DNA from: Candidatus Bacteroides merdigallinarum
GTDB taxonomy: Bacteria > Bacteroidota > Bacteroidia > Bacteroidales > Bacteroidaceae
DNA: 64,000 nt
NCBI GenBank assembly: GCA_019116285.1
Contig: DXBX01000033.1
Span: 1-64,000 of the forward strand
Reading direction: 5' to 3'
Shown here: positions 11,695-29,050 of the stretch, one piece after another
Layout: each line of letters starts with the position of its first letter
Position numbering within the stretch: position 1 is the stretch's first letter
The notes under the pieces: generated by a model
Told to the model about the DNA's origin: nothing
Seen by the model: the letters and a program-made list of their open reading frames with translations, nothing else
The model's database searches: none
Position numbers and translations under genes: made by a program

Positions 11695-13794
11695 TCACGC
11701 CTTTCCACCCTCAATCGGGAGAATAAAGAGGAAGCGGGCCCCCTTTGTATAGGTGCGGTCGTAGGCCACCTCGCCGTTTAGGATTTTGGCAATATTCTGA
11801 CAGATGTTCAAGCCCAATCCGGTGCCTTGCTTGAAGAGATCCACCTTGGTGAACTGATTGAATATGATATCCACTTTGTCGGACGGTACGCCGGGACCGG
11901 TGTCAGCCACGGAGAAGACGATATTGCCCGGCTTTTCCGAAAGCGAGCATCCCACGACAATTTCTCCCGTCTGCGTGAATTTCACGGCATTGGTCAGGAA
12001 GTTGATGAGCACTTGCTTCAAACGTTGCTCGTCCGTATTCAACGTATAATCATCGGGCACTTCCGTGAGGAAACGCAACTCCACGTCTTCCGTCACCCGA
12101 TGCCGCACAGCATCCATAGCCGTACGGCAAGCGTCGTTGCAACGGCAAGGCGCGATATGCGCCACGTATTTCTCGCTTTCCAATCCTGCCAGATCCAAGA
12201 TGTCGTTGACCAGCGTGGTCAGCAGTTCGGAATTATGCAGGATGATATGGCTGAATTCATTTTTCTCGCCCTCGCTGAAATCCGCATCAGAAGTGGCCAA
12301 TAATTGCGAGAATCCCACGATGGCATTCAGTGGGGTGCGTATCTCGTGGCTCATGTTGTGGATGAACTCGGTCTTCATGCGGCTGGAAGCCTCAGCTTGT
12401 TCGCTCGCCACGGCCAGCTCCTGGTTCTTTTTCTGCAACTGGTTCACCATCAGTCGCCGACGATGCAGGTAAAAACAAAGCATACAGATGAACACGACCA
12501 GGAATATGGTCAGGATGCCGAACAAGATATACCGGTTGCGCGAGATCAGCCTTTGTTCTTCCAGCACGTCTTGTTGCCGCAAGATTTCCGCATTGACCCT
12601 GTCCAACTCCAGCGTACGGTTCTTCAAAGCGAGTGCGCTGTTTTCGGCATTGGTCTTTTCCAATTCTGTCTCCGCCTTGGCCTGCTCCAACTGAAGGCGT
12701 GTATTGGAAAGGGTCAACGCGATGTTTTCCGCCTCCAAAGCCTGAGCTTTCCGACTCATGCGCTCGTTGCTGAGCTGCACGGACAGTTCGGCCAAGTCCG
12801 ATGTCTGGACAAGGCGAACCACGGAGTCGCTAAGTTCGGCCAGCTTCTGGCTGTATTCGTAGGCAGACTTGTAGTCGCCACTCCGCTCGGCAATCAGGCA
12901 TTGCAGCTTATAGTAGCCACCCGCATGTTTTTTGGCCGTTTCATAGTCTCCTTGGATGATGCACACGTAGGTATCCAAGATCTTCAGGATGTTGTTGGTG
13001 ACCTTCCCCGTCCGGGCCATCTCCTCCTGACACTGCGCGTAGTAGGTCATGAACTCATCTTCGCGGCCCATCTCGAACAGCGTCAGGCACTTTTCCAACA
13101 TGACGGCCTTGCGATTGGAGTGGAGTTTGGCCACCTGGATGCCTTTCTCGGCATACGCCATGGCCTTGTCATATTGCTTCGTCTGACGATACATCTTGGC
13201 CAGGCGGCCGTAGCTCAGCGAAGCATCTTGCTCGGGCAGGTAGGCCAATTGAAACTTCAGGGTCTCCTCGTGATATCGGATGGCGCTGTCGTAGTCGCCC
13301 CGGGCATAGTAGATATAACCCTGCGCCTTGAGACACGAATAAATGCCATAGTCATTCTTGTCTTGATCCGCTTGGCGCTGCATACGTTCGGCCACGTGCA
13401 ACGCCTTCAGCGAATGATTGTGATTCAGGAGCCAAAAGATATAGTCGCTGCTGGCATAATAATAATATTGCAGGTAGCCGTTCTCCCTCGCTACCTTCTG
13501 CAGACGTTGCACGGACTTCACCAGCATCAGAGAGTCTTTGCCATAGAAGTTGTGGGTCACCGAGAGGGTCAGAGCGACGCACTCCCCCTTCTTGTCACCC
13601 AGCGCACGGGCTCTCTCGGCGAGGGCATCTGCCTTCTCCAACACGTCCGGGGAAGCAACATTCTTCTGCAGCTCCCTGTACACGACGTATATTGAATCAT
13701 GGATTTTGAAGGGATTATTTTGTGCCCGGACAGGAAACTGAATGCCCGCCCAGAGAAATAATCCCATCAAAAAACAGCCTATTAACCTATTCAT
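11695..13794 (-). CDS. TPR-containing membrane sensor histidine kinase (no receiver domain)
   Basis: Signal peptide, TPR-like region, TM, FIHNMSHEIRTPLNAIVGFSQLL, NFLTNAVKFT, DTGPGVP, GTGLGL. Confidence 0.9.
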   Translation of the reverse strand: MNRLIGCFLMGLFLWAGIQFPVRAQNNPFKIHDSIYVVYRELQKNVASPDVLEKADALAERARALGDKKGECVALTLSVTHNFYGKDSLMLVKSVQRLQKVARENGYLQYYYYASSDYIFWLLNHNHSLKALHVAERMQRQADQDKNDYGIYSCLKAQGYIYYARGDYDSAIRYHEETLKFQLAYLPEQDASLSYGRLAKMYRQTKQYDKAMAYAEKGIQVAKLHSNRKAVMLEKCLTLFEMGREDEFMTYYAQCQEEMARTGKVTNNILKILDTYVCIIQGDYETAKKHAGGYYKLQCLIAERSGDYKSAYEYSQKLAELSDSVVRLVQTSDLAELSVQLSNERMSRKAQALEAENIALTLSNTRLQLEQAKAETELEKTNAENSALALKNRTLELDRVNAEILRQQDVLEEQRLISRNRYILFGILTIFLVVFICMLCFYLHRRRLMVNQLQKKNQELAVASEQAEASSRMKTEFIHNMSHEIRTPLNAIVGFSQLLATSDADFSEGEKNEFSHIILHNSELLTTLVNDILDLAGLESEKYVAHIAPCRCNDACRTAMDAVRHRVTEDVELRFLTEVPDDYTLNTDEQRLKQVLINFLTNAVKFTQTGEIVVGCSLSEKPGNIVFSVADTGPGVPSDKVDIIFNQFTKVDLFKQGTGLGLNICQNIAKILNGEVAYDRTYTKGARFLFILPIEGGKA

Positions 13795-13878
13795 CCGTGT
13801 CGCCTTGTAAAATTAGGGCAAAAGTAGGCATTTTCGAGGAACAAAGCAGCATAAAAGCCTCAAAATCTTCCAAGAAAG

Positions 13879-16491
13879 TCATTTCATCTGCCTCGGCAAC
13901 GTCAACTCGAAACGAGTGCCTTGGCTTTCTTTGGAGAAGACGGTGACTTGCCCTTGCAGAAGCCCGGTCAAAGTTTGGACAAGGCTCAAGCCAAGGCCGG
14001 CTCCCTGGATAAATTCATCGACTTTGTAAAATCGGTCATAGATATGAGACAAAGCATCCTGAGGTATGCCTTTCCCCGTATCCTCCACATAAAAGGCCAC
14101 GGTATCCGCCTCACCTTGGCGACATCCGAGGGTTATATGCCCTTGCAGCGTGAACTTGCGGGCATTGTTCACCAGGTTCACCAAAATCTGTTGGAGGCGC
14201 TTCTCATCCGTCCGGATGCTCAAAGCTTCATCTGCCGGAAGCTCCAGAAGCATCTCCACGCCTTCCTGACGCTCCTCACTGCTCTGTTGCTCGTACACCT
14301 TTTTCAGGAGGTCACACACCCGGCAATCAACGGGATGAAGCCGGACATTGCCCGTATCTATATTGGAAATGTCCAATACATCGCCCACCAACTTCAATAG
14401 CAACTGGGTATTCTTGTGGATAAGGCTGGTGAACTCTTTCACTTCCCCGGGAGAATATTGCTCAATATCGTCCAGCAAGGAAGAGAAGCCTACGATGGCA
14501 TTGAGCGGCGTACGGATTTCGTGCGTCATATTGGCTATGAAGGCGGACTTTATCCGATCGGCCTGCAGGGCACGGTCGCGAGCGGCAATCAGCTGAGCTT
14601 CCGTATCCTTATAATATTGAATGCTCTGACTGATGCCCAGCACCATATAGGGAGAACCGTCTTGCAAACCGTCATACGTGACACTGGAGAATTCCCACCA
14701 CTCATACGTACCGTCCTGATGACGCAGACGCAAAGGAGAACGCTTGTTGTCTGAATTACCTTGCCGCACTCGACTGAAATCGGCTACCGCACCGGCCACA
14801 TCCTCCGGATGAATCATGTCGCGCAACTCTGCCCGAGTCAATACCCCGTCATGACCCGGATAACCCATATAGTGAAGCAGGCGCGGAGGGAAACAGAACA
14901 TATCCTTGTCCATGTCATATTGCCAATTGAAGATGTCGCTATCCTCCATGGTCATGTGCAGCAACAGGCGTTGACGCTCCTCGTCGGAGATGTTGTGGCA
15001 AAGGATAGCTACGCCGTTCAGCCGCTCCCCGTTCAGCAAGGGGATAATCTCTCCGGACACGGGGAAGTAGGTACCGGTCTTTATTTCCTGTACAAACGAT
15101 TTCTCCGGTATAGGCATCGGCACTCTCTCCGTCCGGACTTGTTCGATCAGCTTGTGCAGGATATCTTCCCCGTTACACAGGATGCGCAAGTAGGTCCCCG
15201 CCTTACGCCCACCGTAACTCTCGTCTATCGGCAAAGCCAACATCTGCAGCATGGCGGGATTGATGAAGTGCAACTCCATGTCGGCACCGTAAGTTACCAA
15301 ACCGTCGCGGAAAGAACAGAAAATATGGTTGAACTCGTTGCGTTGCTTCACCAACTGATCCTGCACCATCAGGCGGGTTTGCATCTCCTTCCGCCGATGG
15401 CTTTCCTGATGATTCAGGTGCAATAGCCAGAGGATGACCGTAACCACCACCAGAAACAGCACAATCGAGCCGACTATCAGCCAACTTTGATACAATTCAA
15501 CCCACGAGGCACCGAAGATGACACCCTGCTTCTCCACCACACTCCGGCTCAAGCCAAATTGTTGTACAGCTTTCAGGTTATAAAGGAATGTTCCTTTCCG
15601 GTCGGTGAATCCCAACGACGCGGGAGCGGCTCCTTGCAGCACCTTGGCCGCCATCAACCCTGCCTGATACCCCATGTCATAGGGCTTCATGTCGTAAGCG
15701 CAAAGGCTTCCGCTGCTCACGGCCAGATTCTGCAACGCATAAATAGGAGCGGCAAACGAGTTGCGGGCCACAAAGGACATAAACTGACTCCAGTTGGGCG
15801 CAACGACAATGTGATTGGAGGCACTCTCCGTATAGCAGATATCCCTTACCACCCGGGCAGGCATCTCGGCCACCAAGTCATAGACCTTCCAACTATACTC
15901 CGGATGCTGCCGGCTGAATACTTTCCAATAGGCATTCAGTTCTTCCAGGCATTGGCGGCTATAGGCACTCGTATCGGCTATGCAGATAAAGTCTTTCCGC
16001 TCGGGAAACACCCGCACAGCTTCGTCCAGCAAGGCGGCATAATCATTGCTCACAGAGAAACCGCACACATTCTTGCGTTGCAACAGCGCGTCGGGCACCT
16101 TCTTCATGCCTGCACATACAACAGGCAGCTCCCATAACAAGGAATCATCGCACGTCAGCAACGCATTGACGGCCACACCGCTTACGGTCACCAAGGCATC
16201 CGCCCCTCCGGCACGGGCCTTCCGGCAGATGTCTTCCATCATCTCCGCATGCACATGCCAGTCGCCCACGCCCACACCCAAATACTCGATATCTACCGAA
16301 GCATTCACTCCTCCGGCCTTCAATCCGTCCTTCAAGCCACGGTTCAAATCTTCATGGCAGGAGGTCGCTTTGGAATAGGAATGGACAAAAGTAACGTGTC
16401 GCAAGCCCTCTGCCGCATGAACGGGCAAGAGCGTAGCCATTACCAGCATACAAACCGTAAAATAAAACCAACCGTAAGTCTGTTTGTTCAT
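13879..16491 (-). CDS. Sensor histidine kinase with periplasmic ABC-substrate-binding-like domain and PAS
   Basis: N-terminal secreted HVTFVHSYSKATSCHEDLNRGLKDGLKAGG...VVCAGMKKVP; TM; PAS; FIANMTHEIRTPLNAIVGFSSLL; NLVNNARKFT; no C-terminal REC. Confidence 0.88.
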   Translation of the reverse strand: MNKQTYGWFYFTVCMLVMATLLPVHAAEGLRHVTFVHSYSKATSCHEDLNRGLKDGLKAGGVNASVDIEYLGVGVGDWHVHAEMMEDICRKARAGGADALVTVSGVAVNALLTCDDSLLWELPVVCAGMKKVPDALLQRKNVCGFSVSNDYAALLDEAVRVFPERKDFICIADTSAYSRQCLEELNAYWKVFSRQHPEYSWKVYDLVAEMPARVVRDICYTESASNHIVVAPNWSQFMSFVARNSFAAPIYALQNLAVSSGSLCAYDMKPYDMGYQAGLMAAKVLQGAAPASLGFTDRKGTFLYNLKAVQQFGLSRSVVEKQGVIFGASWVELYQSWLIVGSIVLFLVVVTVILWLLHLNHQESHRRKEMQTRLMVQDQLVKQRNEFNHIFCSFRDGLVTYGADMELHFINPAMLQMLALPIDESYGGRKAGTYLRILCNGEDILHKLIEQVRTERVPMPIPEKSFVQEIKTGTYFPVSGEIIPLLNGERLNGVAILCHNISDEERQRLLLHMTMEDSDIFNWQYDMDKDMFCFPPRLLHYMGYPGHDGVLTRAELRDMIHPEDVAGAVADFSRVRQGNSDNKRSPLRLRHQDGTYEWWEFSSVTYDGLQDGSPYMVLGISQSIQYYKDTEAQLIAARDRALQADRIKSAFIANMTHEIRTPLNAIVGFSSLLDDIEQYSPGEVKEFTSLIHKNTQLLLKLVGDVLDISNIDTGNVRLHPVDCRVCDLLKKVYEQQSSEERQEGVEMLLELPADEALSIRTDEKRLQQILVNLVNNARKFTLQGHITLGCRQGEADTVAFYVEDTGKGIPQDALSHIYDRFYKVDEFIQGAGLGLSLVQTLTGLLQGQVTVFSKESQGTRFELTLPRQMK

Positions 16492-16714
16492 TGCTTATCG
16501 TAAGTATCCGTGCAAAGGTAAGACTTATCAGCCAAGCAACCAAATTAAACGGCAATTTATGGCTTCTTTTCAGGCATACGCGGACACCCGCCTACAAGGC
16601 CACAGAGGCATACATCCAGGGACAAATGAGATTCAGCACGAAAAAAAGAGAAAAATTTCTTATGAATTCTACATTTTCCTTGAAAATATATTCTTACTTT
16701 AATGTAATTTTCTT

Positions 16715-16723
16715 TATCTTTGC
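16715..16723 (+). promoter_or_regulatory. Putative -7 element (TATCTTTGC) for the exopolysaccharide operon
   Basis: Matches TAnnTTTG; no good -33 at normal spacing. Confidence 0.4.
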
Positions 16724-16828
16724 AGCATGGAAATTATGCCTGAAAGGCAAAGGAACAACTACCGGATCCGCATCCGACAGCAAGTTCCGAATTAGATATA
16801 TAGGATACGTTGAAAAACAACACCTATC

Positions 16829-18217
16829 ATGAGCAAAACAAACGTATACGGTTTATTTATTGCGGTCATTCTTCTGTGTTCGGGGAACACCGTTTTTGCG
16901 CAGGTCGGAAACACTACCGGCTCTGCCGAAGTTGTATTGTTGCAAGGGCTCAACAACGACAGCATTCTGTCTGCTTTCTCGCGACGGTTCGTAGTGCTCG
17001 ATTCGTTACTACAATGTACAGCGGAACCGGAAGAAGCCTTTGCATGGGTCGGTGGATGTGCATCCACCGACGTTCTTGACTCCGTCTTCGACGAGAAGGA
17101 GGCCTACGAACGCAAGGCTTTCCTGCGGAAACACGGATTGGAATTGACAGGACAGGCCTATTACCGTCTGGATGACCAATTGGGATTCGACGAAGACGAC
17201 CAATACTCACGGTATAAAGCCAAGTTTCAGGGAGAAGTCGGATGGAACCTTTTCAACAGTTCTTTCCTCCAGCGAAAATCAGAATTGCGCCTCATCAACC
17301 TCTCCAACCAGGCAGAACGGCTACAACAACAAAGAAAGCTCTTCTCCCCCACGAAAAACCATACGGAAGAAGCCATCAAAAAGTACTATGACGCCTTGTC
17401 CGCCGCAGTGCTACACGAACAATTGCTGAACAACGAGGTGTTGCAGAAGGCCTATTTGTTTGTCCTGGAAACCAACCGCGCCAGCAATGAGAAACTGCTG
17501 GAGAATAACACCGAAAAGATGCGCATCGAACATGCCCTCGCACAAACCGGGGTGACAACTCCCGAAGAGCTCCGGGCGATACGAATCCTTCAGCCCGCCT
17601 GGGTGGAAGTGGACAGCGCCCGCCTGTTAGCTCACGTGCGGGAGAACCACATCGAGCTACAAGAATCGCACGTCCGGGGGGAGATACTCGACGCCCGAAT
17701 CCGCCTCACCAACTACGCACACGAACTGCGCCTTACACCTTTCGTGAGGGTTTCCCACTACCTGCGCACCGGTATAGGACCGAAATCGTCCACCAACGTG
17801 GAGGTGGGAGCACGCTTCACTTTCCCATTCTATGGAGACGCTTCCGCCAAGCGGAAAGCTTTGCGAACCGAACAGGCCATCAATGCATTGGGAAGGGAGA
17901 CACTCTCCGAAACATTGGCAGAACAATGCCACCGCCTGCTCGACCAGCTGAATCGGCTGAACGTGGCCATCGATGCCGAACAAAGACATGCCGACCTGCT
18001 ACGCCGTTTCATTGCCCTCCGCAAAGAAGGTTATCTGAACAGCCAGAATGGCTATAACCACGTAGCACGATTGGAGGAATACAACGAATACTTGAAAAGC
18101 CTGGAGCGGACATACAGCCTGCTACGGGAGAGGGCACTCTGTCTGCTGGATATCCAAAAGACAGCGGGTTACCCGGATATGGCCCCCTTATTACGCATGA
18201 AGGAGATAAGAAAATGA
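16829..18217 (+). CDS. TolC-family outer membrane efflux/export protein
   Basis: Signal peptide ...NTVFAQ, long coiled-coil regions, VEVGARFTFPFYGDASAKRKALRTEQAINALGRE; operon with HlyD-like gene. Confidence 0.75.
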   Translation: MSKTNVYGLFIAVILLCSGNTVFAQVGNTTGSAEVVLLQGLNNDSILSAFSRRFVVLDSLLQCTAEPEEAFAWVGGCASTDVLDSVFDEKEAYERKAFLRKHGLELTGQAYYRLDDQLGFDEDDQYSRYKAKFQGEVGWNLFNSSFLQRKSELRLINLSNQAERLQQQRKLFSPTKNHTEEAIKKYYDALSAAVLHEQLLNNEVLQKAYLFVLETNRASNEKLLENNTEKMRIEHALAQTGVTTPEELRAIRILQPAWVEVDSARLLAHVRENHIELQESHVRGEILDARIRLTNYAHELRLTPFVRVSHYLRTGIGPKSSTNVEVGARFTFPFYGDASAKRKALRTEQAINALGRETLSETLAEQCHRLLDQLNRLNVAIDAEQRHADLLRRFIALRKEGYLNSQNGYNHVARLEEYNEYLKSLERTYSLLRERALCLLDIQKTAGYPDMAPLLRMKEIRK

Positions 18218-19371
18218 AAAACTTCAGTTACAATCGCGAACCGCAGGAAATGAACGTAGAAGAGGTCTTGATCTCCCGCAAGAAACGTCTCCGGAATCAA
18301 CAGATCATCTTCGGCAGCATCTTTGCCGCCGTAATGCTGATACTGGCTATTTATGTAGTGCGGCGAATTGTCTACACCTATTACGACGGCTACATCAAGC
18401 TTGATCAAAACAACATGCGGGCCGTGGATGACCTGTTCGTACTCCGTATCTACAAGCAAGTAGGCGATAGAGTGGAAGCAGGAGACACACTTTACTCCTA
18501 TGTATTGATAGACAACCTGCTGGAGCATCAGAATGTCATCTCCGTACCGGGCGTAGTGGGCGACTACCACCGGATGCAGGTGCAGGCCGAACTGGCAGCT
18601 GCCGAAGTGCCTGTCCTGCGAGTACGGCTACAGGAATTGGACAAGCGGTTGAAAAACGAAGAAAACGACGTGTACTATGGCGTGACCGACAATACCCAAA
18701 AGCTTATGCTGCAAGCCGAACGCAAAGAGGTGGAAGAGCGGTTGAGGGAACAATACCGCAAGATAGCCATCTATCGGCGTATGGCGGCCAAGGCCTCGAA
18801 AGATTTGGCTCATTCGGGGTATGGGACGAACTTCCTGCCTAACGCACCGGGAGGAAACAACGTGAGCCAGTATCTCGTCAAATACGCCTGCGCCCCCAAA
18901 GATGCTGTCGTGACAGATATCAAGGTGGCCGAAGAAACCGTAGTCTTCCACAAAGAAGGAATCATCGACCTGCAACACGATGATTACGCCGCCTGCAACC
19001 TGGGTGTGATAGCCTACATCCCAAGCAACAAGGTAAAATATATCAATAAGAAAGGAAATGTAGAAATCGTAGTCAATGATGACATTACCCTCAAGGCGAA
19101 ACTGTCGCTCCTCGGCATGCGCGTGGAGGAAATTCCCAAACACCTGGTGAGCAACTTCGCACACGACATTGATGCGGTCATTGCCTACTTCACGTTCCTG
19201 CCCGGCCAGCAAGTACCGTTTTGGGTACTTACGGACAACTTACCCGTACGAGTTCGTACCAACAATTTCCAGGCAGAGGATGAAGAATTTGCCAGCCGCA
19301 CCCTGGAAATCAAGGAGAACAGCCAAGTAATACCCGCAGATACCCTCTATCAGAAAGGAGATAACTTATGA
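18214..19371 (+). CDS. HlyD/Alg44-like periplasmic adaptor (membrane fusion protein)
   Basis: N-terminal TM, biotinyl-lipoyl-like segment (YKQVGDRVEAGDTLYSY), coiled coil, second half-motif. Confidence 0.8.
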   Translation: MKNFSYNREPQEMNVEEVLISRKKRLRNQQIIFGSIFAAVMLILAIYVVRRIVYTYYDGYIKLDQNNMRAVDDLFVLRIYKQVGDRVEAGDTLYSYVLIDNLLEHQNVISVPGVVGDYHRMQVQAELAAAEVPVLRVRLQELDKRLKNEENDVYYGVTDNTQKLMLQAERKEVEERLREQYRKIAIYRRMAAKASKDLAHSGYGTNFLPNAPGGNNVSQYLVKYACAPKDAVVTDIKVAEETVVFHKEGIIDLQHDDYAACNLGVIAYIPSNKVKYINKKGNVEIVVNDDITLKAKLSLLGMRVEEIPKHLVSNFAHDIDAVIAYFTFLPGQQVPFWVLTDNLPVRVRTNNFQAEDEEFASRTLEIKENSQVIPADTLYQKGDNL

Positions 19372-21590
19372 TAACCATTCAGAACAATAAACGGCAACGT
19401 CGAATACTGATCTTCGATAGCGCATTCAATCTGGAAGACAGCAATGACTTCCTGCGCGAGATGTTTGATGTCGTTTTTATATTCACCTCATCGCCTGATG
19501 AGGCGAAGGCCATTCTGAATGTCATCAACCCGGTCACCTCCCGCAAATGCTGCTACAAGCCCTTCCTGGTATCAAGAGACTTAAAAGGACAACTGGACGA
19601 ATACGACGAACTGGTAGACTGCTACACGTACGACATTGATGACAGCGAGACACTCGACACCGTGGAAAATATCATCAGCCACATTGAGAGCACAGGTTTA
19701 CAACCGGACGACAATCAGGTTCTCTCCGGAAACCTATTCTTTGTCCGCCTCTACCGCTACCTCATCTCGCGCCGCACGTATAACCTGACCCCGGAACTGA
19801 ACAACCTCTCGGCCATGGGCTACTCCATCCCCCTCTTCGAGTTGTTCTACCGCCAGGGAGCCTACACCCTGAACGAATATATCATCTTCAACCAATCGCT
19901 ACTGGAGAAGCGGTATATCCGACCCATACAGTTCATCAACAAGATATACCTGTGTCCGAAGTGCTTACACAGCCACCTATTATATATAGAGAACTGTCCG
20001 CACTGCCACAGCTCCAACATCGAATGCGAAGAGGTCATCCACCACTTCCGTTGCGCCAACATATCACCGGAACATACATATAATTTCGGTGGTCAGCTCC
20101 GTTGTCCCAAGTGCCACCAACTGCTGCGCCACATCGGAGTGGACTACGACCGCCCGTCTTCCGTGTACACGTGCCATAACTGTGAGGAAACTTTTGTCCA
20201 GCCAAACATGTCGGCGGTATGCACCACTTGCAACAATCAGTCGGATGTCTCCGGCCTGACTCCATATGATGTTACAGCCTTCGAAATAACCTCGGAAGGT
20301 TGCAAAGCCATCATATCGCCCAACATCGGCTTCACGGTCTACACCGACTTCTACGACAACTACATGCCCTTCGATAATTTCGTATCCCGGCTACGCCTGC
20401 TGTCCCAACTGAAAAGTGCAGGCAGTACCGATGCCGACATCGTAGTAGTGAAAGTGTGGGTGCTGAACGAACAAGAGGAATCCTGTCCGCTGAGTTCGGA
20501 TTTCATTGCTTTGATCTGCAAACGCTTCCCCACACACAAAGTCTCCTCGGCCAATAATATGGTCTATATCCGAGACTCCGTGTATGCCAGCGATAAGGAG
20601 AACAACCTCACCGGCAACGAGATGACCGACCGACTGGATGCCATTTTATACAAGGAAGCTTCGTCCATCGCTCCCGGTGAGCGCATCTGCTATGCGGTGT
20701 CACGTTACGAGGAGGACATGGAAGAGTTTACCAACAGCTTACACTTCACGTCTCCGTTTCCGAACAAAACTTTTGCCTATCGCCAACCAACAGAAAACGA
20801 GAATCAGACAGACCTCGGCAACGAAACGACAGAAGAAAACATATCTGAAAAACCGGCAGAGGCCTCTACCGAAACACTGAGCATTCCTGTCGCAGAAATC
20901 GAAGAATCTGCCACGGAAAGCGAGGAGTCTGCCACGGAAAGTGAGGAACCTATACAAGGAATTCCGGAAGAAGAGCTGAATCCAGAAGAAGAGTTGAACC
21001 TGGAAGAAGAACTGAATCCGGAAGAGACCGAATTGGAAAAAGTCAAGGAGGAAACCGAACCGGAAGAAGCTGAAGAGGAGACCCATTTAAACCGTTTCCT
21101 TTCCACTCGGACTATCGTCTTATCCCTCGCTTCCGTAGCTGCCGTAACCTTGGTGTTCGCCCTGCTGTATACGCCAGAGAAGGAGGAACTGAATACATCG
21201 ATGACCCAAGTAGAAGAAGCTCCGGCCTATGCCACCATGACGGAACTCCCAACCGACACAACCGCTACGGAAGAGCCGGCCGACAGCGTACAAGCCCCGA
21301 CAATAAAAGCCGAAATTACCACCGAACAGACAGTGGAAGAAACCTGTAAAGGCACGTATTATGTGGTAGAAGGAGCTTTCAGCCAGAAAGAGAATGCTCA
21401 ATCGCAACTGCGCAAGAATGCCGAAAGCCAGCCCGGATACGCATACCGCCTCTACAAACATGGCAATTTATACATCGTCTCACCCTTTAGTTCCACCGAC
21501 CGGACCCGGTGCGAGGAATTTATACGCACCCGGACCTTATCAGGCAACTTATGGGTAACAGAAGGCAAAAGAAAGGAGGAGAAACCATGA
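19368..21590 (+). CDS. Receiver-like/zinc-ribbon (TackOD1-like) protein with acidic linker, single TM and C-terminal SPOR domain
   Basis: CPKCLHSHLLYIENCPHC, CPKCHQLLRHIGVDYDRPSSVYTCHNC, CTTC; TM TIVLSLASVAAVTLVFALLYT; SPOR-like GTYYVVEGAFSQKENAQSQLRKN...YIVSPFSS. Confidence 0.75.
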   Translation: MITIQNNKRQRRILIFDSAFNLEDSNDFLREMFDVVFIFTSSPDEAKAILNVINPVTSRKCCYKPFLVSRDLKGQLDEYDELVDCYTYDIDDSETLDTVENIISHIESTGLQPDDNQVLSGNLFFVRLYRYLISRRTYNLTPELNNLSAMGYSIPLFELFYRQGAYTLNEYIIFNQSLLEKRYIRPIQFINKIYLCPKCLHSHLLYIENCPHCHSSNIECEEVIHHFRCANISPEHTYNFGGQLRCPKCHQLLRHIGVDYDRPSSVYTCHNCEETFVQPNMSAVCTTCNNQSDVSGLTPYDVTAFEITSEGCKAIISPNIGFTVYTDFYDNYMPFDNFVSRLRLLSQLKSAGSTDADIVVVKVWVLNEQEESCPLSSDFIALICKRFPTHKVSSANNMVYIRDSVYASDKENNLTGNEMTDRLDAILYKEASSIAPGERICYAVSRYEEDMEEFTNSLHFTSPFPNKTFAYRQPTENENQTDLGNETTEENISEKPAEASTETLSIPVAEIEESATESEESATESEEPIQGIPEEELNPEEELNLEEELNPEETELEKVKEETEPEEAEEETHLNRFLSTRTIVLSLASVAAVTLVFALLYTPEKEELNTSMTQVEEAPAYATMTELPTDTTATEEPADSVQAPTIKAEITTEQTVEETCKGTYYVVEGAFSQKENAQSQLRKNAESQPGYAYRLYKHGNLYIVSPFSSTDRTRCEEFIRTRTLSGNLWVTEGKRKEEKP
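20901..21020 (+). repeat. In-frame coding tandem repeats (21-bp EESATES x2; 18-bp EEELNP x3)
   Basis: Direct reading of DNA and protein at 20901-20942 and 20967-21020. Confidence 0.85.
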
Positions 21591-22903
21591 ACTATATCTT
21601 CGACACGCTGGATACGTTTGTGACCTACCTGGAGGGTTTGTCTATCTCGAGCATCTTGAACACCTATTGGTTCCTGTTCTTCATTGAGTTTCCACGCTAC
21701 TACCTGGCAGAGATTCTCGTGACACTCTACCGCTGTGCCACGTGGAAGTCCATCGTGCGCACTGACGAACAGGCTGCCATGACGCTTCGCAAAGACAATC
21801 CGCTGGTCTCTATTCTCGTGCCCGGCAAGAACGAAGGTAAACACATCTATGCGCTGCTGAATTCACTCCAAGAGCAGACGTACAAGAATCTTGAAATCAT
21901 CATCGTGGATGACGGCTCAGACGACACCACGCCACAAATATATACCGACCTGGAACGGCGTGGTCTTATCAGCCGCTACCTCCGCCTGAATATACGTGGC
22001 GGCAAGGCCAGTGCAGCCAATTTCGGTGCCTACTATGCACGAGGAAAATATGTCATACACCTGGATGCAGACTCTTCCCTGGATCGCGACGCCATCGAAC
22101 AAATCTTGCTCCCATTCTACTTCGACCCCAACATCAAAGCCGTGGGAGGATGCGTGAAGGTGCGCAACGCCCAAGAAACCATCTGTACCTCACTACAGGC
22201 ACTGGAATATCTGAAGACCATCATGGTGGGACGCACCGTCACCAGTGCGCTTGGTATCTACCACATCATCTCCGGTGCATTCGGCGCATTCGATACGAAA
22301 ACCTTGCGACAAATAGGCTACTGGGATATTGGCCCCGGATTGGATGGCGATATCACGCAAAAGATACGCAAGGCAGGATGGAAAGTTCACTTTGCCGGAA
22401 AAGCCGTATGCATGACCAATGTACCCACCTCGTGGGTTCAACTGTTCAAACAGCGCCTGCGCTGGTCAAAATCATTGGTACGTTTCCGCATACGTAAACA
22501 TAAGGATATACTGTTGCCCACCCGCAACTTCTCGATGCTGAACTTCCTGTCAAACTTGGAGAACATCTTCTACGATGGAGTACTGAACTACGTCTGGCTG
22601 TTCTACATCATCAATCTGGTACTAACGCAGAACAACCATTTCTTCGAAGTGGTATTCCTGGGCTTCTTCATACGCTATTGTTTCTCACTAATAGCATTTG
22701 CCATAGTGATGATAACGACCGAACGGCGCAAAGAAGAACTTTACCTCTTCGCTTACCTGCCCCTCGTCTCGCTCTACAACGGCTATTTCCTACGCTTGGC
22801 AAGATTGTGGGCACATACCACCGAGATTTTCTTCTTCACATCATACCGAGACCCATGGAACCCGCGCAAGACATCTATCTGCGCACAACTGGAACGAACG
22901 TAG
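21587..22903 (+). CDS. Processive family 2 glycosyltransferase, BcsA/Alg8-like integral membrane synthase
   Basis: VSILVPGKNEGKHI, IIIVDDGSDDTT, IHLDADSSLD, GLDGDIT, QRLRW; N- and C-terminal TM helices; no PilZ domain. Confidence 0.9.
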   Translation: MNYIFDTLDTFVTYLEGLSISSILNTYWFLFFIEFPRYYLAEILVTLYRCATWKSIVRTDEQAAMTLRKDNPLVSILVPGKNEGKHIYALLNSLQEQTYKNLEIIIVDDGSDDTTPQIYTDLERRGLISRYLRLNIRGGKASAANFGAYYARGKYVIHLDADSSLDRDAIEQILLPFYFDPNIKAVGGCVKVRNAQETICTSLQALEYLKTIMVGRTVTSALGIYHIISGAFGAFDTKTLRQIGYWDIGPGLDGDITQKIRKAGWKVHFAGKAVCMTNVPTSWVQLFKQRLRWSKSLVRFRIRKHKDILLPTRNFSMLNFLSNLENIFYDGVLNYVWLFYIINLVLTQNNHFFEVVFLGFFIRYCFSLIAFAIVMITTERRKEELYLFAYLPLVSLYNGYFLRLARLWAHTTEIFFFTSYRDPWNPRKTSICAQLERT

Positions 22904-23034
22904 AGAAAGGAGAAACTGATATGCACACATATGGATGGCCATAGACAAACAAACAAGGCGCTGACAGAAAACGGTTAGAAGCAGAAAGTCAGCAACAGAA
23001 CAACAAACGAACAACGGTAGATTAAGAGAATTAT

Positions 23035-24306
23035 ATGGATATAAAAGACATTAGAATCGGGATTATAGGATTGGGCTACGTAGGATTGCCACTGGCCTGC
23101 CTGTTTGCCAAGCGTTACCGTGTGGACGGTTTGGAAATCAACCAAGAACGGGTGAACAACCTGTTGCGTGCCCACGACGAAACCGGCGAAGTGTGTGCCA
23201 ATACCTTAGTGGACCGCATGGAAGGTAACCTGCATCTGACTACCCATCCGGAAGACCTGCGCGACTGCAACGTGTACATCGTCTGTGTGTCCACTCCGGT
23301 AGACGAAGAAAACAATCCTGACCTCACCCCGTTAAGGATGGCCAGCGCCACTGTGGGCGAACTGCTGAAGAAAGACGATGTGGTCATCTATGAGTCATCC
23401 GTCTTCCCCGGTTGCACAGAACAAATCTGCGTACCGATGCTCACCGGCAGGTCCGGCCTGACATTCAACGCGGACTATTACGTGGGTTACTCACCCGAAC
23501 GCATCAACCCGGGCGACAAGGAACATACCGTGGAGAACATCACCAAGATTGTATCCGGATCCACGCCGGAGACCCTCAATTTCGTCGAGAAACTGTATAA
23601 TTCCGTACTGACCAACGGCACTTGCCGCGCTTCGTCCATCCGTGTGGCAGAAGCCGCAAAAGTGGTAGAGAACACCCAGCGCGACGTGAACATCGCCTTG
23701 ATGAACGAACTATGTTCCGTCTTCCGCGCCATGGGCATCAGCACCACCGAAGTACTGGATTGCGCCTCCACTAAATGGAACTTCCTGAACGTACGCCCGG
23801 GATTAGTCGGCGGACACTGCATCGGTGTGGACCCTTACTACCTGATACACGGCGCATGGGCCTACAACGTCTACCCGCGTCTTATCATGGAAGCCAGGGT
23901 CATCAATGAGAACATGGCCCACTTCGTCTCCGGAGTACTGACCAAGTGCATGATGGACAGACGGGTACATGTCGTAGACTCGCGGATACTGATACTCGGC
24001 TTCTCCTTCAAGGCCAACTGCCCCGACACGCGCAACACCAAGGTAGAAGACGTGTACAGCTGCTTGCGGCGGGTCACCGACCATGTCTCTGTCTACGACC
24101 CCATCGTCAACCAGGACGAAGTGGCACGCCGTTACCGGATCCAACTGCTGAACGAACTGGACAGCCACCAGGGAGAATTCGACGCCATCATCCTCTGCGT
24201 AGCCCATAAGGAATTCTTGAACATACAACTCCGCCCGTTGCTGACCGCCCACGGCATCCTGTTTGATGCCATGAATGTACTGCCCGATGCGGACTATTAC
24301 TTATAA
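23035..24306 (+). CDS. Nucleotide sugar dehydrogenase (TviB/WbpA-like UDP-HexNAc 6-dehydrogenase)
   Basis: IGIIGLGYVGLPLA; ESSVFPGCTEQ; SPERINPGD; GLVGGHCIGVDPYYL. Confidence 0.9.
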   Translation: MDIKDIRIGIIGLGYVGLPLACLFAKRYRVDGLEINQERVNNLLRAHDETGEVCANTLVDRMEGNLHLTTHPEDLRDCNVYIVCVSTPVDEENNPDLTPLRMASATVGELLKKDDVVIYESSVFPGCTEQICVPMLTGRSGLTFNADYYVGYSPERINPGDKEHTVENITKIVSGSTPETLNFVEKLYNSVLTNGTCRASSIRVAEAAKVVENTQRDVNIALMNELCSVFRAMGISTTEVLDCASTKWNFLNVRPGLVGGHCIGVDPYYLIHGAWAYNVYPRLIMEARVINENMAHFVSGVLTKCMMDRRVHVVDSRILILGFSFKANCPDTRNTKVEDVYSCLRRVTDHVSVYDPIVNQDEVARRYRIQLLNELDSHQGEFDAIILCVAHKEFLNIQLRPLLTAHGILFDAMNVLPDADYYL

Positions 24307-24330
24307 ACGAACTTGTAAAGAATCGACCAT

Positions 24331-25350
24331 ATGAACGAAACAGATTTTTCAAAATACACCGTGCTGGTAGTGGATGATATCCCGACCAACATTCTCCTGG
24401 TGAAAGGAATGCTCGCAAAATATAAATTCAATATTGTGAGCGCCAACAGCGGTCGGCAGGCCTTGGACCTCTTGACCCGCACGCAACCGGACATCATCCT
24501 GATGGATATCCTGATGCCCGGCATGAACGGTTTCGAGGCCACCCGTGCCATCAGATCCAACCCCGCCACCGCCCACATCCCCATCATCATGCTGTCCGCC
24601 TTGAACTCGGATACAGACATCAAGGAAGGCCTGGAGGCAGGAGCCAATGAATTTATCACGAAACCCTTCATACAGGAGCACATCGTGAACTGCCTCATCA
24701 CGCAAATCAACCTCTCGGAGAGCAAGCAGAAGAAGCAGGACCGGGAAACCGAAGCCGGACTGGGATGGGATGCAGCCATCTGCCTGTTGGCCGGCATGGC
24801 CTGCTGCGGAAAGGATGACCTGGCACGCCACTTGGGCGACCTGGCACTTTCCATTCCCCTGCCTTTCCTCGACGATAGCCTGTATGCTCTGCCGGACTAC
24901 ACCTCCGAAAGCCTGGTATCCTGGGCCTCGCAACGACTGCAGAGCCTGGAGATGAAAAACGAATCCATATCGGTCAACGATTGCCTCACGCACGTCATCA
25001 GCTTACTGGTACCTGCGGCAAAAGCCCGGAAAATCACCTGGAACCTCCAACTGAACGGGCAGATAAACATCGTTGGCGACCCCGTCTTGCTAAAGGCTGT
25101 CTTCACCAACCTGTTGTCCTGCGCCTGCCATATGGGAACGGGCGAAGTGACGGTCAATGGCAACGTAGACGGAGGCTTGGCCAATCTTGTCATCACCTGT
25201 ACCCCGGACAACACAGCCATCCTGGATACCGACTTCCGCGTGGCCTTGGCCCTGGAAGTGGCCTTGAAGATGAACGGTGCGGTGACTTCCGAAAAAACCG
25301 ATGACGGGCAATACCGCTTCCAGGTATTGCTACAGACCTGGCAGAAATAA
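24331..25350 (+). CDS. Receiver-domain protein with degenerate histidine-kinase-like C-terminus
   Basis: VLVVDDIPTNILLV...IILMDILMPGMNG...MLSAL...FITKPF; C-terminal DPVLLKAVFTNLLSCACHM resembles an N-box but lacks Asn, H-box and G-boxes. Confidence 0.8.
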   Translation: MNETDFSKYTVLVVDDIPTNILLVKGMLAKYKFNIVSANSGRQALDLLTRTQPDIILMDILMPGMNGFEATRAIRSNPATAHIPIIMLSALNSDTDIKEGLEAGANEFITKPFIQEHIVNCLITQINLSESKQKKQDRETEAGLGWDAAICLLAGMACCGKDDLARHLGDLALSIPLPFLDDSLYALPDYTSESLVSWASQRLQSLEMKNESISVNDCLTHVISLLVPAAKARKITWNLQLNGQINIVGDPVLLKAVFTNLLSCACHMGTGEVTVNGNVDGGLANLVITCTPDNTAILDTDFRVALALEVALKMNGAVTSEKTDDGQYRFQVLLQTWQK

Positions 25351-25385
25351 TGTACACAAGTTTTACATATATAGCATAACGAACC

Positions 25386-27410
25386 ATGGACGGTAGAATG
25401 ATATTGATAAGCTTAGCAGGGCTGCTCGGTGTGGCCATTGCCATCCTGCTTTTCCTTTACTTGCGCAACCGCAAACGCCTGCGCCAACTACAGGAAAAGG
25501 AGGCGCAATTGTCCAACCGTATCTCTGGCATACTGAACGCCTTGCCGTTGCTCTACATGTATCAGGAAGTGATTACGGACGAGAAAGGAATGATAGTAGA
25601 TTCCTACTACCGGGATGTGAACAAGTGCTTCACCGACCAGATTTACCCACGGGAGAAGTGCATCGGTCAACTGGGCAGCAAGCTCTTTCCCGACTCCATG
25701 CCCACCTTCCTGAAGGCGAGCAACATGGCGAAGCAGACCGGAAACGCGCTCAATTTCCAGTACTACTACCCCGGGACAAACCGCTTTTACGACATTATGG
25801 TCCGCCCCTGCGAGAATGGCCGCTTCATGGAGTATTTCTGCATGGACAGCACAGAGCTGCACGAAGCACAAGAGAAGTTGCGCGACCTGAACAAGAAGAT
25901 GGAAATTGCCCTGGATGCCGCACACGTATCACCATGGCGCTACGACCTGGAGAGCAACATGATCTACAGCCAGGAAATCATCAACGAACCAACAGGCTCC
26001 ATCACACAAGAGGACATATCGCTGACCGTACAGCAAGTCTACACCAACATCCACCCCGACGACCGCACACGCGTTCGCCAAGCCCTGGAAGAACTGATAG
26101 ACGGCAAGCGGCAACGCATCAGGGAGGAATGCCGCTTAGAGTTTGTCGCCAACGGCAAGTCCCACAAGGAATGGGTAGAAGTACGTGCCATGGTGGGTAC
26201 CCGTAACAATGAGGGACACCCGCTCATGATAGTGGGCTCGCGCCAGGTGATCACCAAGCGCAAGATGATGGAGGAAGAACTGCGGGCAGCCAAACGTCAG
26301 GCGGAAGAATCCAACCGACTGAAGTCGTCTTTCCTCTCCAACATGAGCCACGAGATACGCACCCCCCTCAGTGCCATCGTAGGATTCAGTGAACTGCTGG
26401 TCAACGCCGAGACCGAAGACGAACGGACGGAGTATGTCCACATCATCGAAAACAACAGCGACCTGCTGCTGCAACTGGTGAACGATATCCTCGACCTGTC
26501 CAAGATAGAAGCCGGCACGGTGGAATTCACCTACACCGACTTCGATCTGAACAAGTTGATGAAAGAAATCTTCGACTCCACGCAGCTACGCCTGGCTTCT
26601 ATGGAAAAGCCCGTCACGCTCTCCTATGCCACCGGCATGGAACAGTGCATCATACATTCCGAACGCAACCGCCTGACACAACTCATCACCAACCTGCTGA
26701 CCAATGCCATCAAGTTCACGGACAATGGCAGCATCAGCTTTGGGTACGAGCACAGAGATACCCAACTGTATTTCTATGTCAAGGATACCGGTTGTGGCAT
26801 TGAAAAAGAACGTCAGAAGGATATCTTCGAACGCTTTGTGAAACTCAATTCGCACAAGCAGGGAACAGGTCTCGGTCTCTCCATCTGCAAGAGCATAGCG
26901 GAAACTTTGGGAGGAAAAATCGGGGTAGAGTCCGAAGTAGGCAAAGGCTCCACCTTCTGGTTCATCATTCCCTATAAGTCGGCCGAAGAAGTCCTGCAAA
27001 AGGTTGCCTCTTCCAAGACGGTCATTCCCTCGTCGCAACAGGTCAACATCCTGGTGGCGGAGGACAACGAGAGCAACTACAAGCTGATAAAAGCCATCCT
27101 GTCCAAGGAATACAACCTCTTCCATGCCTGGAACGGACAAGAGGCCGTAGAAATGTTCAGCAAGTGCCATCCGCAGCTCATCCTGATGGACATCAACATG
27201 CCCGTCATGGACGGTTACGAGGCCACCCGCGAAATCCGCAAGCTCTCTACGGACGTACCCATATTGGCGCTCACGGCCTATGCCTACGCATCGGACGAAG
27301 AGCGCATCCTGAACAGCGGCATGAACTCATACATGTCCAAACCGGTGAACACGCAGCAACTGCGCAAACGGGTGGATTCCTTGTTAAGGCAGGCATTCGT
27401 GTTCCTATAA
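25386..27410 (+). CDS. PAS-domain hybrid histidine kinase with C-terminal receiver
   Basis: TM, PAS, FLSNMSHEIRTPLSAIVGFSELL, NLLTNAIKFT, GTGLGLSICKSI, REC VAEDNESNYKLI...LILMDINMPVMDG. Confidence 0.92.
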   Translation: MDGRMILISLAGLLGVAIAILLFLYLRNRKRLRQLQEKEAQLSNRISGILNALPLLYMYQEVITDEKGMIVDSYYRDVNKCFTDQIYPREKCIGQLGSKLFPDSMPTFLKASNMAKQTGNALNFQYYYPGTNRFYDIMVRPCENGRFMEYFCMDSTELHEAQEKLRDLNKKMEIALDAAHVSPWRYDLESNMIYSQEIINEPTGSITQEDISLTVQQVYTNIHPDDRTRVRQALEELIDGKRQRIREECRLEFVANGKSHKEWVEVRAMVGTRNNEGHPLMIVGSRQVITKRKMMEEELRAAKRQAEESNRLKSSFLSNMSHEIRTPLSAIVGFSELLVNAETEDERTEYVHIIENNSDLLLQLVNDILDLSKIEAGTVEFTYTDFDLNKLMKEIFDSTQLRLASMEKPVTLSYATGMEQCIIHSERNRLTQLITNLLTNAIKFTDNGSISFGYEHRDTQLYFYVKDTGCGIEKERQKDIFERFVKLNSHKQGTGLGLSICKSIAETLGGKIGVESEVGKGSTFWFIIPYKSAEEVLQKVASSKTVIPSSQQVNILVAEDNESNYKLIKAILSKEYNLFHAWNGQEAVEMFSKCHPQLILMDINMPVMDGYEATREIRKLSTDVPILALTAYAYASDEERILNSGMNSYMSKPVNTQQLRKRVDSLLRQAFVFL

Positions 27411-27541
27411 ATAAAAGAAAGGAGGAAAAGCAAACGAAAGAAACAAACATAGGTATTAATCTTGAAGCAAAAACAGAAAGGAGTATGATGAAACAAATGA
27501 GAAAAGAACAACAATTGTCTAATTATTTAAAACGTAAAGTT

Positions 27542-29050
27542 ATGAACAAAAAGTTTTATTGGTTGGCAGGCTTTGCGGCACTCATGATGACCGCAGCTTG
27601 CAGTGACGACAATGTCACAAACCCGAATCCCGATCCAACTCCGGATCCGGAAACGGAAGAGAATGTAGTTACGCTACAAGTACTGGACGGAGCCTCGCAG
27701 GCAGATCGTATCCAAATGGTTGTACCGACAAAAGCAGTTGGAGGTGTTAAGAAGAACAGGCTCAATTATGTTGCCACGATTAAAAATCCTAAAGCACAAG
27801 CAGCAGATCGTGTCTGGTCTACCACATCCATTTATATTGAGAACGAGGAAAATACTGAACATACAGTATACATCACCTGGCATTCCGACCGACAAGCAAC
27901 CAATCCTGCACAAGTATGGGGCGGACAGCTTGATGTGGTTGGTTTTAACGAAACGGGAGATAATACCTCCACCATTGACATCGAATCTTCAGTACTAGCT
28001 CAAAATGTTATGAAATTCGAGAATGTAATGAAAGTAGACGATGTTACTTTTTATAATCCCAATGGAGAAGTTGTAGCAGGCAATAACTGGGGACTGTTTC
28101 TTTCGGCCACTCATGCCACTAAAGGAGCTGTTGTAGCCCGTATTCCCGGATTCGGCATGTCAAGAGCGGAAATCTTGGGAATGCCGGGAACCTCTGTAAA
28201 TGCTGTAGCAGAATTAGATGGCGAATTAATTGCCGTAACGGGTTATAACGGCACATACGCAACTTTTGATCCCAGTGCAAAATCAGCCTCTTACAGCTAT
28301 GAACATCCGGAAAGAAATACATGGTTAACCCTCGGACAAGAGTTGACAGCGGGCTTTGGAGGAAAATATGTCACTACTTATAATGGAGAAGCCTACATCC
28401 TGCACACGGATGCAGAGAAAGCTCAGATTATCAAAGCAAGCGACAATTCAGTAGTTGTAGACAATATGAAGCCTCTGCTTTCGGATGACAAGTTCAGCGA
28501 ATCGTATGACCCCGTTACAGGAGACTGGTTTGTGAATGAAAATGGTGCTTCAACCCCGACGCAAGGCAAGCATGTCATGGTGATAAAAGATGGCTACGCC
28601 TATGTAGGTGCAGGCTTGAACGGATTGCGTGTCTATAACCTTTCTAACGGTCAAGAAGTAGCTCAAGATGACTTTGAAGACGGTGGCCCTAACACCACTG
28701 GTTTGTGCATAGATGATGACTTGCTTTATGCCGCAACAGGCAGTGGTTTGCGTGTCTACAGCATGCTGGATGGAGGCAAGTTAAGCCTATATGCTTTCGA
28801 AGTTGCAGAATATGATGAAAACGGTTTGCCTAATTCAGACGATGTTCCCACAACCGGAGTTGAGGAAGGAGAACCCATTCTTGATGAAGATGGCAATGTA
28901 CAACAGCCCCGCCACTCGGCCAACTATGTCGCTGTCTTAACTACTACTACAGCTGGCGACAAATACATATTTGTTGCTTATGGTCAAAGCGGCGTTCGCG
29001 TGTACAAACTCATTCCGAATGTGGGTGATAATGTAGGCGGCATAGAATAA
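27542..29050 (+). CDS. Secreted lipoprotein with predicted beta-propeller-like repeats
   Basis: Lipobox LMMTAACSDD; recurrent GYAYVGAGLNGLRVYNL / DDLLYAATGSGLRVYSM / YIFVAYGQSGVRVYKL. Confidence 0.75.
   Translation: MNKKFYWLAGFAALMMTAACSDDNVTNPNPDPTPDPETEENVVTLQVLDGASQADRIQMVVPTKAVGGVKKNRLNYVATIKNPKAQAADRVWSTTSIYIENEENTEHTVYITWHSDRQATNPAQVWGGQLDVVGFNETGDNTSTIDIESSVLAQNVMKFENVMKVDDVTFYNPNGEVVAGNNWGLFLSATHATKGAVVARIPGFGMSRAEILGMPGTSVNAVAELDGELIAVTGYNGTYATFDPSAKSASYSYEHPERNTWLTLGQELTAGFGGKYVTTYNGEAYILHTDAEKAQIIKASDNSVVVDNMKPLLSDDKFSESYDPVTGDWFVNENGASTPTQGKHVMVIKDGYAYVGAGLNGLRVYNLSNGQEVAQDDFEDGGPNTTGLCIDDDLLYAATGSGLRVYSMLDGGKLSLYAFEVAEYDENGLPNSDDVPTTGVEEGEPILDEDGNVQQPRHSANYVAVLTTTTAGDKYIFVAYGQSGVRVYKLIPNVGDNVGGIE

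Follow-up and report, generated by a model that had tools for sequence, protein, structure and literature searches.

A predicted exopolysaccharide machine in Bacteroides with a TackOD1 zinc-ribbon protein as the partner of its GT2 synthase

Introduction

Glycosyltransferase family 2 (GT2) synthases that make surface polysaccharides are usually under the control of cyclic di-GMP (c-di-GMP) via PilZ-like proteins, and a gene cluster in Candidatus Bacteroides merdigallinarum raises the question of how such a synthase would be regulated where the genes for this signal cannot be found. The cluster lies in a stretch of 64,000 nucleotides (the window), nearly the whole of contig DXBX01000033.1, in a metagenome-assembled Bacteroides genome of 2.7 Mb that is 80.6% complete and lies near Candidatus Bacteroides pullicola and B. 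intestinipullorum. Searches for PilZ, GGDEF, and EAL domains found none in this whole 80.6%-complete genome, and control genomes gave matches; the absence noted more locally in a first-pass annotation of the window is thus extended to the genome. Every gene listed in that annotation was recovered in its place by open reading frame, Pfam, and NCBIfam matches. We infer the export route, regulation, and product of the cluster from gene content, gene order, domain identity, and co-occurrence, and conclude that it is probably a synthase-dependent exopolysaccharide machine in which a GT2-HlyD-TolC exporter is switched by a TackOD1 zinc-ribbon protein, similar in its working to the Mxd biofilm system of Shewanella.

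TackOD1 is the fixed partner of a clade of GT2 synthases

The zinc-ribbon gene (positions 19368 to 21590, plus strand) codes for a 740-residue protein, residues 127 to 306 of which match TackOD1 (PF18551) with 161.7 bits (E = 1.9e-47; cut-off, 32 bits). TackOD1 is defined by 11 cysteines in five CxxC motifs and one HxxC motif (PMC5847659), and all 11 are present (C196xxC199, C210xxC213, H226xxC229, C246xxC249, C269xxC272, and C285xxC288). It has been described as an output domain in archaea, with occurrences at type IV pilus loci of Thaumarchaeota and in some bacteria; its function was termed obscure, and a link to a synthase was not given (PMC5847659). The next gene (21587 to 22903, plus strand, with its start corrected to 21587) codes for the 438-residue GT2 polysaccharide synthase (Glycos_transf_2, 1.9e-27), with DDG, DAD, and QRLRW motifs.

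TackOD1 is rare in Bacteroidota, scoring above the cut-off in 12 of 395 genomes. When the same sample was searched with a GT2 alignment (E ≤ 1e-90), the GT2 clade was present in exactly those 12 genomes, at 13 loci; the chance of this overlap is ~4e-23 if the two are independent, a figure that ignores the relatedness of the genomes. The GT2 gene lies directly 3′ of TackOD1 at all 13 loci, with TolC and HlyD genes close by, and the same GT2 is directly downstream of TackOD1 at 14/14 further loci from two other samplings. TackOD1 is present in 20 of 72,556 plasmid records, and the 15 that are bacterial (alpha- and gammaproteobacteria) all have the GT2 directly downstream, followed in most of the bacterial records examined by a HlyD-like gene. 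A reverse search using the window GT2 as query ranked 14 of these 15 records first, ahead of any PgaC; in the fifteenth, from an Aeromonas plasmid, the GT2 extends across the start of the record.

A tree built from 35 GT2s placed the bacterial TackOD1-linked synthases together in a single clade (98/98), distinct from PgaC/IcaA, NodC, and others. A single row of the clade, a Sinorhizobium medicae GT2 on a long branch whose exact position is unsure, had no known TackOD1. This GT2 is followed by a HlyD-like gene and, after it, by a short zinc-ribbon reading frame with a TackOD1 score of 45.9 bits, and the GT2 clade therefore predicted the domain. TackOD1 is a fixed partner of this GT2 clade, and a domain of obscure function is now tied to one type of synthase across Bacteroidota, Alphaproteobacteria, and Gammaproteobacteria, which gives it a testable role. 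The Bacteroidota core comprises TolC, HlyD, TackOD1, and GT2, in most cases joined by a conserved lipoprotein; some TolC proteins are fused to a GH18-like domain, and some HlyD proteins carry SPOR. The conservation of gene order in other Bacteroidetes, proposed earlier as a check, is present far beyond chance.

Several related arrangements were seen. One genome (G203) has two TackOD1-GT2 clusters of differing architecture ~13 kb apart (L033 and L034), and the only contig recovered by a scan of a viral collection (L097, 4467 to 8294) carries TackOD1-GT2-HlyD, probably as host DNA or a prophage flank. A group of haloarchaeal TackOD1 proteins (L060, L061, L063, and L069) of ~325 residues share a C-terminal domain and have no glycosyltransferase nearby, and are a second, different use of TackOD1. 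In Halorussus halophilus (L062, 4950 to 7911), a stand-alone TackOD1 is followed by a DUF2334 (deacetylase-like) gene and a glycosyltransferase, with overlapping genes, an archaeal form of the pairing that uses another GT2. Another GT2 has a HEAT-repeat protein encoded directly upstream at two loci (L076, 1431 to 3838; L078, 1591 to 3721), in Mesorhizobium and the archaeon Halosolutus, and also in Legionella, possibly a parallel synthase-partner pair.

TackOD1 as a candidate control domain

What the partner does is suggested by the domains joined to it. Among 23 TackOD1 proteins from diverse loci, seven have a receiver domain (REC) and seven have GGDEF (best GGDEF match, 1.4e-10), and PleD is among the receiver/GGDEF structures matched by the TackOD1 family profile. 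It could be argued that TackOD1 instead stands to the synthase as PgaD does to PgaC, an obligate subunit whose structural or co-catalytic role serves assembly or polymerization rather than switching. The near-invariant pairing would suit such a subunit, as would the minimal S. medicae TackOD1, which has ~80 residues and no signaling domain; however, a receiver or GGDEF on many TackOD1 proteins and the recurrence of two-component genes nearby are as expected of a regulator, and we think the subunit explanation unlikely.

The window protein differs in that neither REC nor GGDEF is recognizable in its lineage. It has one transmembrane segment (residues 582 to 600) and, C-terminal to it, a weak periplasmic SPOR-like end (16.9 bits; cut-off, 21). 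SPOR, listed with the zinc-ribbon protein in the first-pass annotation, does not define that protein but is a movable module, lying on HlyD in two relatives. The N-terminal domain matches its counterpart in other Bacteroidota relatives (hhalign, 93%), and that counterpart in turn matches a free-standing 110-residue protein of further loci (97.9%). AlphaFold2 modeling of residues 1 to 460 gave a mean pLDDT of only 39; the fragment from 315 to 460 gave 56.5, and a fold search of the PDB with it returned no significant match.

The first-pass annotation had suggested that the zinc-ribbon/SPOR protein stands in place of PilZ and c-di-GMP control. The perfect co-occurrence of TackOD1 and GT2 in Bacteroidota agrees with that position, but GGDEF on the relatives shows that independence of c-di-GMP does not extend to the whole family. 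The pairing does suggest that control in gut Bacteroides could proceed without c-di-GMP. We propose tentatively that TackOD1 could be a general control domain of one synthase clade and the counterpart of PilZ, with input from receivers, GGDEF-bound c-di-GMP, or both, and free of c-di-GMP in Bacteroides; if this is true, the TackOD1 proteins of Thaumarchaeota and Halorussus would point to archaeal surface polymers.

The synthase, its export route, and its substrate

In the PDB, the nearest matches to the window GT2 are chondroitin and hyaluronan synthases, and lipid-linked transferases rank lower, so that the closer kinship to lipid-linked enzymes raised earlier as an objection is not seen. Upstream, the TolC-like outer-membrane channel (16829 to 18217, plus strand; 462 residues with a signal peptide) was placed by profile comparison (98.5%, E = 1.5e-15) with relatives, several of which match OEP. 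OEP matches occur in 9 of the 17 family members, and the position of the gene is conserved in all Bacteroidota loci; the family profile gave no useful match in the PDB. The HlyD-like periplasmic adaptor (18214 to 19371, plus strand; 385 residues with one transmembrane segment at 31 to 49) was likewise placed by profile comparison (99.0%) with relatives that match HlyD_3, as do 17/20 family members, and the family profile matches EmrA (3.6e-15) and also HlyD. The TolC-like, HlyD-like, zinc-ribbon, and GT2 genes (16829 to 22903) overlap by 4 bases at each junction and are therefore probably co-translated.

The nature of the cargo is indicated by the relatives. In several, TolC has a C-terminal GH18-like domain with the motif GIHLDVEPH (best match 2.1e-5, below the Pfam cut-off where shown), and in Methylocystis the gene after HlyD codes for a similar GH18-like motif, with no Pfam match of its own. 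Because a glycosidase-like domain is joined to the channel, the cargo is likely a glycan. Together with the EmrA/HlyD match and a GT2 of the processive type, this domain supports synthase-dependent export, as first predicted. That HlyD and TolC export a protein or small molecule while the GT2 makes a glycolipid or other cell-bound sugar would accord with the protein and drug export for which these families are best known and with the profile match to EmrA and HlyD, but it is very improbable, since no ABC, MFS, or RND pump was found among the cluster proteins, the GH18-like domain or gene accompanies TolC or HlyD in relatives, and the GT2 is nearest to processive synthases.

Two further genes complete this part of the cluster. 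A dehydrogenase (23035 to 24306, plus strand; 423 residues) is of the TviB/WbpA class of UDP-N-acetylhexosamine (UDP-HexNAc)-type 6-dehydrogenases; TviB is its best NCBIfam match, of the right class and, at 437.9 bits, below the equivalog cut-off of 592. By profile it scores 199 bits for the UDP-HexNAc class versus 82 for GDP-mannose dehydrogenase, with UDP-glucose dehydrogenase also far lower, and no second member of its class was found in the genome. The lipoprotein gene (27542 to 29050, plus strand; lipobox MTAAC) codes for a member of a family that recurs at most of these Bacteroidota loci (hhalign to lipoproteins of other loci, 94.8 to 96.8%); its start, given earlier as 27164, is most likely at 27542 (MNKKFYWLAGFAALMMTAAC).

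A proposed mechanism and its relation to known systems

We propose that the inner-membrane GT2 polymerizes a UDP-sugar and moves the chain across the membrane, that the HlyD-like adaptor and TolC-like channel take it out of the cell, and that the lipoprotein anchors the product or acts on it outside. The TackOD1 protein would be a dedicated cytoplasmic partner that turns the synthase on. In relatives its input would come from a fused or partner receiver, GGDEF, or both, and in this Bacteroides, given that no c-di-GMP genes were found, from a local phosphorelay; the window-lineage protein spans the membrane and may contact peptidoglycan through its SPOR-like domain. The dehydrogenase would provide the uronic acid form, UDP-HexNAcA, and the polymer would probably then be acidic.

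Several observations count against parts of this proposal. A direct action of TackOD1 on the GT2 is presumed, and 4/5 haloarchaeal TackOD1 records have no glycosyltransferase nearby. Neither the TolC nor the HlyD protein of the window matches a Pfam family directly. The possibilities that the N-terminal domain of the window TackOD1 protein is a pseudo-receiver and its C-terminal domain a worn-down GGDEF were both considered, and profile comparison gave no receiver identity for the former and did not show the latter, for which the only pointers are helix and strand order and the relatives. Many relatives' clusters lack a dehydrogenase, and so does that of the close relative L032, which has another such gene elsewhere. 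The earlier prediction of an acidic polymer of uronic acid or HexNAcA is borne out as to the class of the dehydrogenase, and an acidic (HexNAcA) product is plausible only, because the L032 cluster lacks the gene.

The closest parallel is the Mxd system of Shewanella oneidensis (PMC3691769, PMC7666153, PMC11395469). Biofilm structure there depends on the GT2 MxdB; MxdA, which is proposed to set synthesis in motion, binds c-di-GMP and contacts the receiver CheY3. Compared by published description, Mxd has a GT2 adjoining the efflux-like MxdC and the regulator MxdA, and the REC and GGDEF fusions to TackOD1 mirror the contacts of MxdA with CheY3 and c-di-GMP. The TackOD1 loci of Photobacterium and Plesiomonas share the Mxd gene order (regulator, GT2, HlyD-like); in the window the same three functions are adjacent, but HlyD precedes. 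The window departs from Mxd in having a TolC, a dehydrogenase, a lipoprotein, and kinases of its own, and in lacking a recognizable GGDEF. The best reading is that the window machine works like Mxd, without a claim of membership, and a poorly understood biofilm system may thereby gain a wide family.

Other synthases show partial likeness. BgsB is the adaptor partner of BgsA. The latter, a rhizobial mixed-linkage glucan synthase compared here by description, resembles the window enzyme as a GT2 without PilZ but is cellulose-synthase-like and binds c-di-GMP by its own C-terminus (PMC5567048). The cyanobacterial XcsAB-TolC cellulose system has a GT2, a HlyD-like adaptor, and a proposed TolC route; it differs in having PilZ on XcsA and TolC outside the operon, and TackOD1 is not mentioned (PMC12430437). 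Alginate (Alg8/Alg44/AlgE/AlgD) and Pga systems share a GT2, a periplasmic part, and an outer-membrane exit, but the window has no PilZ protein, a different channel type, and another class of dehydrogenase.

Several assignments to established pathways were considered and dropped. An alginate system was rejected in the absence of PilZ (Alg44) from the genome, and the comparison with AlgD in the first-pass annotation fails at the family level, the dehydrogenase being of the UDP-HexNAc and not the GDP-mannose class. For poly-GlcNAc (Pga/Ica), the GT2 scores 165.3 bits against a PgaC/IcaA cut-off of 422.3 and falls in a separate tree clade; the PgaA porin, PgaB deacetylase, and PgaD have no Pfam or NCBIfam match among the cluster proteins. 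The BcsA PilZ, BcsB, and BcsC domains of cellulose synthesis are absent from the cluster, and PilZ from the genome. A Wzx/Wzy or ABC-type capsule locus was dropped, with no such genes among the cluster proteins.

Local kinases and neighboring genes

Four signaling genes accompany the cluster. Between the dehydrogenase and lipoprotein genes are those for a receiver-domain protein (24331 to 25350, plus strand; 339 residues; Response_reg, 5.1e-29) and a hybrid histidine kinase (25386 to 27410, plus strand; 674 residues) whose PAS-HisKA-HATPase-REC organization is confirmed by Pfam. The former had been described as a REC/pseudokinase protein; the receiver is present, and the C-terminal half, the supposed pseudokinase, matches no Pfam family. 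Two divergent kinases, one with ABC_sub_bind and PAS domains (13879 to 16491, minus strand) and the other with TPR repeats (11695 to 13794, minus strand), each combine HisKA with HATPase_c and lack a receiver, as first described.

Four close relatives retain both the receiver protein and the hybrid kinase. In three of them (L046, L047, and L048) the TPR-type kinase adjoins the cluster; the fourth, L032, is a short contig ending before that region. L048 (975 to 4817) has two tandem TPR-type kinases beside the cluster, where the other relatives have one. The ABC_sub_bind kinase is seen only in the window, with no ortholog in the relatives' loci, and a second Bacteroides locus (L045) lacks the receiver protein, the hybrid kinase, and the divergent kinases altogether. 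In other bacteria, two-component genes are again seen around the block, but not the same ones. The suggestion that the system has its own multi-kinase control module does not hold for its core, and the kinases look like local, lineage-specific inputs outside the machine proper.

Beyond the lipoprotein, and before a menF-like gene, the window has a TIR and Sel1-repeat gene (29536 to 31797; TIR_2, 1.8e-19; Sel1, 1.4e-37). It may be a recent insertion, because in L046 the menF-like gene follows soon after the lipoprotein with no TIR/Sel1 gene between them, and it perhaps has a role in defense.

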